DNA from: a virus
Length of the DNA stretch: 21,479 nt
Reading direction: 5' to 3' (one strand)
IMG/VR virus record: IMGVR_UViG_3300047309_000071
Location: 1-21,479 of that record
Part shown: positions 11,832-18,752 of the stretch, in pieces
Numbering within the stretch: position 1 is the stretch's first letter
Layout of the letters: each line of letters starts with the position of its first letter
Notes under the pieces: generated by a model
Told to the model about the DNA's origin: nothing
What the model saw: the letters and a program-made list of their open reading frames with translations, nothing else
Databases searched by the model: none
Position numbers and translations under genes: made by a program

Positions 11832-12044
11832 ATGTTGACGCATCAGGCATTTTACGATGCCACACTTAAAAAGCTCATTTCTGAAGAAATTGAGCGAAGG
11901 AAAAACAACCTTATTGCAGCCCATCAGGCCAAAGGGTTTGATTTCCCAGCATTTAAACACCATGTTGGTATTATTGAAGGACTTCAAATGGCCTTGGGGC
12001 TATGTGAGGAGGCTGAGAAATTGGCCAATCAGACGTACAGATAA
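11832..12044 (+). CDS. Small helical protein, 70 aa
   Basis: I do not recognise a named family. The sequence is mostly helical: a helix with KKLISEEIERRKNNL, a short turn (KGFDFPAFK), then a helix GIIEGLQMALGLCEEAEKL. Proteins of this size and style occur between portal and capsid genes in many phages. The ATG follows AGGGGG at a spacing of five bases, and that site lies in the predicted pseudoknot described at 11761-11828. It is followed after 12 bases by the GroES-like gene, so regulation of this start could affect the whole head operon through coupling. Confidence 0.65.
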   Translation: MLTHQAFYDATLKKLISEEIERRKNNLIAAHQAKGFDFPAFKHHVGIIEGLQMALGLCEEAEKLANQTYR

Positions 12045-13978: not shown

Positions 13979-14002
13979 ATCAAATAAATATAAGGACATG
14001 AG

Positions 14003-14027
14003 GGGGCTGCCTATTGGTGGCCCCTTT
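14003..14027 (+). terminator. Terminator at the end of the scaffold unit
   Basis: GGGGCTGCC (14003-14011) pairs with GGTGGCCCC (14016-14024) around the loop TATT, as a 9-bp RNA stem including two G-U pairs. A short TTT and further A/T-rich sequence follow. It lies just after the gene ending at 13978. Confidence 0.65.
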
Positions 14028-14061
14028 ACATTTAAAATTTATTTGTAGATATTTGTATAAA
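14025..14061 (+). promoter_or_regulatory. Possible promoter for the capsid genes
   Basis: The A/T-rich stretch after the terminator has TTTACA (14025-14030) and TATAAA (14056-14061), but the spacing between them is too long for a sigma70 pair. TAGATA at 14046-14051 gives better spacing and a poor match. A promoter is expected here because a terminator precedes highly expressed capsid genes, but no consensus pair is convincing. Confidence 0.2.
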
Positions 14062-14131
14062 GCCTGTATGGGCTTACCTCCCCCGGCGTGGAGGTTCAAA
14101 AATACTGTTCCTAGCTACCCCGGCGTGTAGT
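14060..14131 (+). promoter_or_regulatory. Three stem-loops in the capsid leader, two sharing loop CCCGGCGT
   Basis: Hairpin 1 is AAGCC/GGCTT (14060-14064 with 14071-14075). Hairpin 2, directly abutting it, is ACCTCC/GGAGGT (14076-14081 with 14090-14095) with loop CCCGGCGT (14082-14089). Hairpin 3 is GCTAC/GTAGT (14114-14118 with 14127-14131, the outer pair G-T) with the identical loop CCCGGCGT (14119-14126). The stems of 2 and 3 differ in sequence yet both pair, while the loop is unchanged. That is the pattern expected of a structured RNA or hairpin-binding protein site. Confidence 0.65.
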
Positions 14132-14164
14132 GATTGGGACTTCTTGTAAAAAGGAGAATCCGTC

Positions 14165-14749
14165 ATGGCGAATACGAATGCGCCTTTCGGCTTCCGTCAA
14201 TACAGCGGCACTGGCTCTGCCCCGACTTATGAACAAGTCGCTGTCCAGATCGCTTATAATGCTACCAATATCTTCTTTGGCGACCCCGTAGAACCTGCTG
14301 CTGACGGCACAGTGACTCAGGGTGACGGTACAACTGCGGCTGCTGGCATTGCTGGCGTCTTTGTTGGCTGTCAGTACCTTTCTGTTTCCCAGAAGCGTAC
14401 CGTCTGGTCGAATTATTGGCCCGGTTCTGACGTTGCATCTACCAATGTCGTGACTGGTTATATTGTCAATGATCCCAATGCTAAGTTTGTTGCTCAGACA
14501 GACAGCTCTGGCCTTGCTCAGACTGATGTTAATGCAACAATCGGTTACACGACAGGTTCCGGCAATACCGCAAATGGTATTTCTGGTGCTTATCTGTCCG
14601 GCGTTGGCCCGACGACATCCACCCTTCCTTTCCGTGTTGTTGGTCTTGTTGTCGATCCTCCGGGTTCGGCTGGCACGGCCTCTGGCGGCTACAACTGGGC
14701 TATTGTTGCGTTTAACAACGTAACAACTAAGAACCAGACCGGTATCTAA
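14165..14749 (+). CDS. Head decoration/accessory capsid protein (putative)
   Basis: A 194-residue protein beginning MANTNAPFGF, rich in Gly, Thr, Ala and Val, with alternating strands and no enzymatic motif. It lies immediately upstream of the major capsid gene. The N-terminal pattern (N-APFGFR, then a GD-V-P-A-A-DGTV block) resembles small virion proteins I recall next to capsid genes in other phages, often called decoration or head-stabilising proteins. AAAAAGGAGAA upstream of the ATG is a strong ribosome-binding site, as expected for an abundant virion protein. It is the first gene after the stem-loop leader at 14060-14131. Confidence 0.65.
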   Translation: MANTNAPFGFRQYSGTGSAPTYEQVAVQIAYNATNIFFGDPVEPAADGTVTQGDGTTAAAGIAGVFVGCQYLSVSQKRTVWSNYWPGSDVASTNVVTGYIVNDPNAKFVAQTDSSGLAQTDVNATIGYTTGSGNTANGISGAYLSGVGPTTSTLPFRVVGLVVDPPGSAGTASGGYNWAIVAFNNVTTKNQTGI

Positions 14750-14764
14750 TAGGAGTAAGGACCA

Positions 14765-15679
14765 ATGGCTGTTAATCTCTCAGCGATTAAAGACCTTCTC
14801 CTGCCCGGTCTCCGTGGCGTTGAAGGCAAGTACGAGCAAATCCCGTCTCAGTACGATAAAATCTTCACCAAGCATGACTCTAAGATGGCGCTGGAGCGTA
14901 CCGCTGAAATGCGTTACCTCGGTCTGGCCCAGCTTAAGACAGAAGGCGGTCAAACTGCTTTCGACAACAGTGCTGGTGAGCGTTATATCTACAATCAGGA
15001 ACACACTGAAATCGCTCTTGGGTATGCAATTACCCGTAAGGCGATTGACGACAACCTGTACAAGACACAGTTTGCTCCTTCAAACCTTGGCCTGATTGAA
15101 TCTTTCGGTCAGACAAAGGAAATCTACGGTGCTAACGTGCTTAACACAGCGCAGACCTACAATGCCAATGTTGGCGGCGATGGTGTTGCATTGTGCGCAT
15201 CTAACCACCCGATTGATGGCGGCACGGTTGCGAATCAGCCCGCTGTTCAGGTCGATTTGAATGAATCGACACTGCTCAACGCGATGATCTCGATCCGTAC
15301 CAACTTCAAGGATCAAGCTGGCCTGAAGGTGTTTGCCCGTGGTCGCAAGCTGATCGTTCCTCCCCAGTTGGAACCCGTTGCAATCCGTCTGACAAAGACT
15401 GAGCTGCGTCCGGGTACAGCAGACAATGACGTTAACGCCATATTCACAACCGCTGGCGGCTTGCCAGAGGGGTATATGGTTAACGACTTCTTGACCTCGC
15501 CTTACGCTTGGTTCCTGCTGACCAACATTGATGGTCTGTCGTACATGGAACGTGTCAAGTTTGAGACTGACATGCAAGTCGATTTTGTCACTGACAATTT
15601 GTTGGTTAAAGGATACGAGAGATATTCTTTTGGCTATTATAATTGGCGGTCAATCTACGGCAGCTTCCCAACCTCGTAA
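14765..15679 (+). CDS. Major capsid protein (HK97-like, gpT-type)
   Basis: A 304-residue protein expected to build the icosahedral shell. N-terminal helices are followed by EMRYLGLAQLKTEGGQTAFDN and GYAITRKAIDDNLY, and a long helix GLIESFGQTKEIYGANVLNTA (the spine helix). The A-domain-like part contains CASNHPI, KVFARGRKLIVPPQLEP, TELRPGTADNDVN and WFLLTNIDGLSYMERVKFE. This order (xKLIVPPxLE, NDVN, F-L-x-x, C-terminal F-GYYNWR) is typical of the Mu gpT-like capsid group. The size, position after the decoration-like gene and strong ribosome-binding site (AGGAGT) agree. GroES-like and scaffold-like proteins upstream are its probable assembly partners. Confidence 0.88.
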   Translation: MAVNLSAIKDLLLPGLRGVEGKYEQIPSQYDKIFTKHDSKMALERTAEMRYLGLAQLKTEGGQTAFDNSAGERYIYNQEHTEIALGYAITRKAIDDNLYKTQFAPSNLGLIESFGQTKEIYGANVLNTAQTYNANVGGDGVALCASNHPIDGGTVANQPAVQVDLNESTLLNAMISIRTNFKDQAGLKVFARGRKLIVPPQLEPVAIRLTKTELRPGTADNDVNAIFTTAGGLPEGYMVNDFLTSPYAWFLLTNIDGLSYMERVKFETDMQVDFVTDNLLVKGYERYSFGYYNWRSIYGSFPTS

Positions 15680-15773: not shown

Positions 15774-16433
15774 ATGAAACTGCAAGAACTGAGCTACAGC
15801 GATGTGTCTGAAGGTATCGCTTATAATCCTGAAACTGGGATTTTTACTTGGAAGGTCGATGCTTCCCGGAATGTGAAAAAAGGAGCTGTGGCGGGTACAA
15901 TCAAAAGAACCCGTCACCGCACCACAGGGCAGACAAAATCCTACCTTTATATCAGATATAAAGATCGGGAAATGGTTGGCTCAAGAGTTGCGTGGTTGTT
16001 GCATTACGGTGTTTGGCCTGACCGGTCTGTAATGTTTGTTGATGGAGATACAGCAAATCTTAAGATTTCAAATCTTAAATTGTCTGAATTTACATCAAAG
16101 TCTATCAGCCAAGATGGTCGTGTTGTTAGGAAAATACCTAAGGATAAGCAAAGGCACTATAGCCTGAAGCGCCATTATGGGATTTCACTTAATGACTACG
16201 CCGAAATGTATCGCCTTCAGGACGGCAAATGTGCAATTTGCAAGCTCCCGGAGGAAAATCGAGACCGACACGGGAATGTTCGCGTTCTAGCTGTCGATCA
16301 TGACCATAAAACTGGTTCCGTGCGTGAGCTTTTATGCTATGCTTGTAATAGTATGTTAGGGCAAGCAAGGGACAATAAAGAAGTTCTATTGGCGGCTGCT
16401 GAGTATGTACAAAAGCATTCTGGCAATAGATAG
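15774..16433 (+). CDS. Free-standing homing nuclease: degenerate HNH plus endonuclease VII domain
   Basis: 219 residues with two nuclease-type modules. The N-terminal part (residues 1-105) follows the HNH_3 homing-nuclease layout: YNPETGIFTWK, an AG turn, GSRVAWLLHYGVWP, then NLKISNLK. The usual D/E-H-x-N-G-D element reads MFVDGD (87-92) here, so the catalytic His is missing. The C-terminal part (about 125-219) is an intact recombination endonuclease VII-like domain: zinc Cys pairs CAIC (153/156) and CYAC (188/191), catalytic VDHDHKTG (174-181) and N192. It probably cuts phage DNA at a target near this locus and spreads its own gene. It sits between the capsid gene and the next virion gene, behind its own promoter candidate, with TAGGAGTTAAC before the ATG. 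Confidence 0.85.
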   Translation: MKLQELSYSDVSEGIAYNPETGIFTWKVDASRNVKKGAVAGTIKRTRHRTTGQTKSYLYIRYKDREMVGSRVAWLLHYGVWPDRSVMFVDGDTANLKISNLKLSEFTSKSISQDGRVVRKIPKDKQRHYSLKRHYGISLNDYAEMYRLQDGKCAICKLPEENRDRHGNVRVLAVDHDHKTGSVRELLCYACNSMLGQARDNKEVLLAAAEYVQKHSGNR

Positions 16434-18107: not shown

Positions 18108-18752
18108 ATGGCAACGAGCGGAACCTTTTACGTCTATGAGCATTGGCGGCTTGACCGCGATGAGTGCTTTTATGTTGGAAAAGGCAAGGGCAATAGAGCT
18201 TATTCTATGAAGAATCGAAACCGCTATCATCAAGCTATTCGTTCAAAATTGAATCGCATAGGCTCAGCATTTGAAGTAAGAATTGTTGCTACTAATTTAC
18301 TAGAAGAAGATGCGTTTTGCCTTGAGCGTGAGCGTATTTTGTTTTGGCGTAATAATAATATTGACTTATCAAATATGACCGATGGCGGCGAAGGTGTTCG
18401 TGGAATTTCAAAAGAAATTAGAATTAATGCTGCAAGGGTTCATATTGGCAACAAATACAATCTTGGAAGATTTTGGACTGAAGAACAAAAATATTTTATG
18501 AGAAAAAAGAAACTTGGATGCAAGGCCCCTGTTGAAACTGAAAAAATGAGGCAAACTAGAATTAAAAATATTGAAAAATCTGCAATTAGCCGCAGAAAAA
18601 AAGTTATATGTTTAAATGATATGGTTGAGTTTAATAGCGTCTCAGATGCCGCGAATCATTATGATTTGCCAAAATCTACCATATCTAAAATTTGCTGCGG
18701 AAATCGTAACGCTGCATATGGCCTTAAATTTAAATTTAAGGAGGCCGTATGA
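18108..18752 (+). CDS. GIY-YIG homing endonuclease with NUMOD1-like tail
   Basis: 214 residues. The N-terminus carries the GIY-YIG nuclease core: FYVYEHW (GIY position, residues 7-13), CFYVGKGKGNRAY (YIG position, 20-32, Arg30) and an acidic helix LERERILFWR (72-81) with the candidate catalytic Glu, followed by NMTDGGEG. The middle is Lys-rich and probably DNA-binding. Residues about 165-210 (KVICLN, SVSDAANHYDLPKSTISKICCG, YGLKFKF) form a NUMOD1-like helix-turn-helix for site recognition. The gene is visibly more A/T-rich than its neighbours, with runs such as AAATATTTT and Lys/Asn codons AAA/AAT, as expected for a mobile gene. Its stop overlaps the next ATG (ATGA). Confidence 0.87.
   Translation: MATSGTFYVYEHWRLDRDECFYVGKGKGNRAYSMKNRNRYHQAIRSKLNRIGSAFEVRIVATNLLEEDAFCLERERILFWRNNNIDLSNMTDGGEGVRGISKEIRINAARVHIGNKYNLGRFWTEEQKYFMRKKKLGCKAPVETEKMRQTRIKNIEKSAISRRKKVICLNDMVEFNSVSDAANHYDLPKSTISKICCGNRNAAYGLKFKFKEAV

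Follow-up and report, generated by a model that had tools for sequence, protein, structure and literature searches.

Matched twin hairpins form a widespread leader RNA family ahead of phage capsid genes and may control their translation

Two hairpins that carry the same loop on different stems, directly ahead of the capsid genes of a phage, raise the question of what they do and what recognizes their loops. We addressed this question in one stretch of viral DNA, hereafter the window (IMG/VR virus record IMGVR_UViG_3300047309_000071, 21,479 bases), and in its relatives. Terminase, portal, and a GroES-like protein are encoded 5′ of this leader, and a 194-aa protein followed by the major capsid protein are encoded 3′ of it; the transcription signals, the leader elements, and these last two genes all lie on the + strand. 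In the computed fold, a terminator-like G+C-rich hairpin with a short T tract closes the preceding transcript (13999–14028), a layout found in most relatives, and promoter scoring placed a sigma-70-like promoter (TTTACA-17-GATATT) at 14025–14053, with a predicted transcript start at ~14060. An initial annotation had set the hairpins after a terminator and before the decoration and capsid genes, and this placement was confirmed. Across leaders the best promoter score averaged 8.2 of 12, compared with 6.6 for mononucleotide shuffles, and the distance from the −10 element to the ATG clustered at 110–118; given a promoter at a conserved distance, the transcript should start at the 5′-terminal hairpin, H0.

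The first gene of this transcript (14165–14749), which we take to be the regulated one, encodes the 194-aa protein and belongs to PHROG 37556 (unknown function). The closest solved folds to its AlphaFold model (pLDDT 78.6) were capsid decoration proteins, all of them weak matches (best E 0.02), and on the strength of this model "decoration-like" seems a reasonable label. The second gene (14765–15679) encodes the major capsid protein (phrog_371 major head protein, E 5e-12). Directly 3′ of it, an N-terminal HNH-type domain is fused to an endonuclease VII domain in a gene that looks like a selfish endonuclease insertion (15774–16433). Elsewhere in the window, a homing-endonuclease-like gene lies amid structural genes (18108–18752), and a collagen-like tail fibre gene extends past the contig end (20461–21477). 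The long intergenic region 3′ of the small terminase gene holds TATGGGTCCCnTA-like repeat units, some of them palindromic (1031–1332), at six positions on the + strand and with 9 matches when both strands are counted, where 1.1 would be expected; these are possibly operator or origin repeats.

Within the leader, H0 (14060–14075) abuts H1 (14076–14095), in which the stem ACCTCC/GGAGGT carries the loop CCCGGCGT at 14082–14089. This loop can be parsed as a C1-G7 pair enclosing the pentaloop C C G G C (14083–14087), followed by a bulged T8. The same CCCGGCGT loop recurs at 14119–14126 in H2, on an inner stem GCTAC/GTAGT (14114–14118/14127–14131). The hairpin positions in the initial annotation were right on recheck, as was its observation that the two loops are identical and closed by C-G while the stems differ yet pair; the interval that it gave for H2 (14114–14131) holds for the inner stem-loop, but H2 is longer, with an outer helix (14107–14111/14136–14140) that extends it to 14107–14140. 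Further 3′, a predicted Shine-Dalgarno hairpin (14140–14156; strands 14140–14145/14151–14156) covers AGGAG (14152–14156). H0, H1, and H2 are each predicted to fold in isolation. Nevertheless, a 95-nt stretch of the window folds no better than its shuffles (z −0.65), and CCCGGCGT is found twice more in the window within coding sequence, so that the single window is weak evidence for the hairpins.

Stronger evidence comes from relatives. Leaders were gathered by protein-only searches and by loop-pattern-only searches, and were read by rule (~180) or, for unusual ones, by hand (~70). The initial annotation had allowed that no other phage might show hairpins with this loop, or that relatives might keep the loop bases and not the stems. 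Instead, both hairpins were present in 250 distinct leaders, of which protein similarity alone supplied 194, and the stems covary. The pair is kept with covarying stems in essentially every relative of the downstream gene, down to ~45–50% identity; in two extracted sets of leaders, it is missing only in HTVC023P (31% identical) and is ambiguous in L479. All seven pairs of the H1 stem are doubly changed, with 92.9% of cells paired and a covariation of 0.87 (shuffles, 0.29; slid controls, ≤0.24), and the H2 inner stem has 98% of cells paired, three of five pairs doubly changed, and a covariation of 0.78 (0.31 in the control). Swapping halves between leaders weakened both the H2 outer helix, from −6.4 to −4.9 kcal/mol, and the Shine-Dalgarno hairpin, from −6.1 to −5.2 kcal/mol. 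H0 is variable in sequence and missing in some clades; its segments fold below −3 kcal/mol in 72% of cases, compared with 29% of shuffles. The second hairpin keeps a tight spacing to the start codon across leaders. The earlier claim that structure and loop are both under selection is thus borne out by the retention of both hairpins and the covariation of their stems.

The distribution of the leader is similarly consistent. In 28 of 29 phage records, a covariance model recovered a single strong copy in the genome, at the decoration-like gene, and the exception was a divergent leader of a Rhizobiales-type prophage (G013). In a loop-pattern scan, matches with good stems on both copies preceded the decoration-like gene family in every case in which the following start codon was identified. 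The other pattern matches have unpaired stems and look like chance occurrences in GC-rich sequence; tandem matches in IMG/VR that lack a promoter (e.g., L202, L168, and L210) were rejected as GC-rich coding sequence or direct repeats, again with unpaired stems. Prophages of Rhizobium, Bosea, and relatives (L413, L418, L409, L410, L415, and L408) carry a divergent leader whose loops differ from the others but match one another, as GGGCC/GGGCC or GCGCC/GCGCC, and at least three of these Rhizobiales-type leaders sit in named isolates. The more distant named phages HTVC023P, DSL-LC04, Alcaligenes QDWS535, Roseobacter CRP-902, Pag-Yong1, and Caulobacter RW are without the leader, and in most of them the intergenic gap is just 15–60 nt. 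Its absence from such distant phages with homologous genes (those of Alcaligenes, Roseobacter, Caulobacter, and others) marks the leader as an acquisition of one large clade. Rfam gave no match in the window or in loci with ACGAT loops, and the leader was described nowhere in a literature search that mostly did not reach subscription papers. We therefore consider it almost certain that the leader is a real and widespread RNA family without an Rfam entry.

Natural variants help to define the architecture of this family. In five leaders (L125, L407, L411, L446, and L150) the bulge is absent and the stem pairs straight into the pentaloop, and in another (L130) one pair is added, which supports reading the loop as C1-[N2 C3 G4 N5 Y6]-G7 plus a bulged eighth base; in one further leader (L589) the bulge comprises two bases in each hairpin. 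Some phages have three loop copies (L185, L192, and L214), with H0 carrying the same loop as H1 and H2. The order is permuted in L129, where a plain hairpin H0 stands between H1 and H2, which makes the leader elements modular. In seven leaders (L112, L116, L139, L161, L049, L067, and L070), one loop is swapped for a TCGG tetraloop on a lengthened stem while the other loop is standard.

The two loops of a leader change together. At loop position 5, 204 of the 250 leaders have G in both hairpins and 46 have another base in both, and mixed leaders do not occur. Mapped onto a tree of decoration proteins, from which one leader of odd register (L054) was excluded, loop class changed 17 times, an upper bound on mutational events given that phages may have exchanged leaders as blocks; all 13 independent pairs were concordant (p = 0.00024). 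The capsid tree offered only five supported pairs, all concordant (p = 0.06). The stems around non-G loops differ among leaders. Positions 2 and 3 are also coupled between the hairpins, position 4 is nearly invariant, and position 6 is barely coupled. Seventeen real leaders have CCGTT as their first loop, and the second is CCGTT in 15 and CCGCT in two; among non-G leaders, one loop may carry T, C, or A where the other carries a different one of these bases. No G-class first loop followed by a non-G second loop turned up when all of IMG/VR was scanned for this order in the standard context.

One explanation for this matching is that the loops touch each other. Antiparallel cross-loop pairing reached 3.59 of 4 positions, above the maximum of 3.42 in 1000 permutations that swapped loops between leaders. 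Nearly all loop variants keep at least two cross pairs, and GCGC, like CCGG, is a perfect palindrome. Kissing in an alternative register with an N5-N5 mismatch was rejected; it would favour G opposite C, which is never seen. The initial annotation had taken the shared loop as a sign of one partner binding twice. Its premise that the hairpins act as a pair stands, but loop-loop contact, which it had not considered, explains the matching at least as well. A shared partner better explains the CCGTT class, in which only two cross-loop pairs are possible, and also why T, C, and A mix in the non-G class. From these loop sequences we infer that the two loops of a leader kiss, are held by one common ligand, or both.

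How the pair could act on the downstream genes is suggested by a second predicted structure. Main-clade leaders have an H2 3′ strand that, with the GATGATGG following it, is complementary to CCGTCATGGCG around the start codon. In the window, 14130–14138, comprising the H2 3′ strand and beyond, would pair with 14159–14166, which includes the A and T of the ATG; this alternative helix (14130–14166) encloses the Shine-Dalgarno hairpin and excludes H2. The consensus duplex has an energy of −17.3 kcal/mol, matched by only 12 of 20,000 shuffles. Over 135 leaders, and with all folding computed on naked RNA, ignoring ribosomes and co-transcriptional folding, the predicted probability that the start codon is paired with the H2 3′ strand was 0.81 and that of H2 was 0.16, the one nearly always excluding the other; with the 8 nt ahead of the ATG shuffled, start-codon pairing fell to 0.23. 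Of 126 leaders with the helix signature, 100 have GCG as codon 2, lengthening the helix; over the rest of these genes, GCG accounts for 21% of alanine codons. GCG also occupies codon 2 in 63 of 93 leaders without the signature, however, so this bias is supportive, not decisive. Coupling between H2 and the start region was modest by permutation (−10.2 vs −9.7, sd 0.15) and partly phylogenetic. The L008-like clade and the Rhizobiales prophages lack the start-codon helix while retaining both hairpins, so the helix cannot by itself explain what the leader does and is either secondary or a clade-specific output stage.

These results can be combined in a model in which the leader would be a cis-acting RNA of ~105 nt on the decoration/capsid mRNA, running from the conserved promoter to the decoration-like start codon just ahead of the major capsid gene. 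The two matched loops would act as one unit, by kissing and/or through one common ligand, and in the main clade would set the choice between two folds predicted to compete. In the ON fold, H1 and H2 would both be formed and the start codon free; in the OFF fold, the predicted ground state, the H2 3′ strand would pair with the start codon and mask it together with the Shine-Dalgarno hairpin. Stabilization of the hairpin pair would then turn capsid translation on or prolong it, with binding presumably corresponding to the ON state. That the leader RNA regulates translation of the capsid operon is most likely. That it does so by switching between the hairpin pair and a competing helix that masks the start codon is a quite plausible reading of the predicted folds, although we advance it tentatively.

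Other readers of the loops must be weighed against this model. One possibility, which we regard with some reservation, is that a single trans-acting RNA-binding protein (a phage backbone gene product or a host factor) binds both loops to regulate the translation or stability of the capsid mRNA, and that the loops change together when phage or host does. Such a protein would account for loop matching even in the poorly kissing CCGTT class, for the mixing of non-G bases, more in keeping with a reader than with base pairing, and for the three-loop leaders and the permuted order of L129. Across 26 phage genomes, loop class followed terminase (p < 0.0005) and not decoration (p = 0.70) or capsid protein (p = 0.60), as dependence on host or backbone predicts; a 70-aa ORF (p = 0.003) and the GroES-like protein (p = 0.011) were also associated, but more than 40 families were tested and only terminase survives correction. 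As terminase shows the same association, that of the GroES-like protein is probably genome background, and the pattern as a whole points to genome background or host. However, the link to terminase comes from 26 genomes, of which 10 are non-G; no candidate protein was found, and a shared protein does not predict the mutual complementarity of the loops. The 70-aa ORF (11832–12044) is conserved, is of unknown family, and adjoins the GroES-like gene; its groups follow loop class at the uncorrected p value given above, making it a possible but weak candidate for a loop partner.

The initial annotation had looked to the virion proteins. Repression by capsid or decoration protein of its own translation, through binding to the hairpins, would suit a leader that directly precedes these genes, and has a precedent in RNA phages, where the coat proteins of MS2 and PP7 control translation by binding a single operator hairpin near the start codon. 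The phage leader resembles those operators in having a hairpin near the start codon of virion genes, but it comprises a matched pair of hairpins, without any link to the capsid sequence: different loop classes accompany capsids that are 98% identical and decoration proteins that are 96.6% identical, no residue column separates the classes, and nearest-neighbour agreement in class gave p = 0.60 for capsid and p = 0.70 for decoration. Hairpin specificity thus did not covary with either protein. In addition, the unbound main-clade RNA is already predicted to be masked, so binding to the hairpins should activate rather than repress. The proposal is unsupported, and we consider such autoregulation highly improbable. 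An element that binds RNA polymerase as nascent RNA and promotes read-through of late-operon pauses and terminators also appears improbable, if less so. The put RNA of phage HK022 consists of two stem-loops directly after a phage promoter (PMC9378689), an arrangement shared by the phage leader, and a host-dependent partner would fit the concerted loop change. However, put acts on early genes and is recognized by polymerase through its stems and a bulged region, whereas the phage leader belongs to late genes and has conserved loop tips and a fixed start-codon distance; a polymerase element needs neither this tight distance nor the interaction predicted there, and each genome has only one copy. 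Finally, the 5′ hairpins might only shield the capsid mRNA from decay, in keeping with the predicted position of H0 at the 5′ end of the transcript, but this would leave the conserved concerted loops and the start-site complementarity unexplained, and we give it very little weight.

Returning to the proposed translation switch, it can be compared with known two-hairpin leaders. The thrS leader operator of E. coli places two hairpin domains before the Shine-Dalgarno site for one dimeric partner, the synthetase, which regulates itself through anticodon mimicry. The phage leader likewise has two hairpin domains ahead of this site, but its loops have no consistent codon or anticodon identity. A closer likeness is to the guanidine-II (mini-ykkC) riboswitch, in which two leader hairpins with matched loops are joined by cross-strand C-G pairs and the ribosome-binding site is freed once the hairpins form (PMC5486947, PMC9094411). 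Here too, two G+C-rich hairpins in a 5′ leader have matched loops centred on a self-complementary CpG, which by complementarity could make the same two cross-strand pairs. Unlike the ACGR tetraloop of guanidine-II, however, the phage loops are NCGNY pentaloops with a C-G closing pair and a 3′ bulge (consensus CCGGY, with minority ACGAT or GCGAT loops that are still pentaloops). Their sequence drifts in concert, the genes controlled would be those of the capsid, and masking would fall to the 3′ strand of hairpin 2, not to the linker. By analogy, the phage leader would work most like a guanidine-II riboswitch, yet it is not a member of that class, as an ACGR tetraloop in both hairpins and an Rfam match are both lacking.

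Several other readings were rejected. The window has an open frame across both hairpins, but the spacing of the loops (36–43 nt) has no period of 3, which argues against a leader peptide. Reading the loops as arginine codons (CGG vs CGU/CGC/CGA, for tRNA-Arg) was ruled out by CAG loops in L406 and GGC loops in Rhizobiales. Neither a conserved frame nor a constant loop codon, as expected of a tRNA-binding or leader-peptide attenuator, was found across the leaders. The GATGAT segment, read as a K-turn, departs from that motif and is better explained by complementarity to the start codon.

Of all the proteins made in a phage infection, those of the capsid demand the largest investment, and in the literature searched no RNA switch is described at the capsid genes of DNA phages. 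A bolder reading, which we consider somewhat doubtful at present, is that the leader represents a new class of twin-loop switch, the first known for DNA-phage capsid genes, in which hairpins recognize each other, possibly around a ligand, to expose the capsid operon's masked start codon in a large and mostly uncultured phage group, with loop specificity having changed repeatedly in concert. The element is compact and abundant, and its structure is testable; as it is present in prophages of cultured Rhizobium strains, it can be studied in living cells. Loops that evolve in lockstep provide a natural record of molecular recognition that single-base swaps can probe, and the leader could be developed into a small two-loop regulator.
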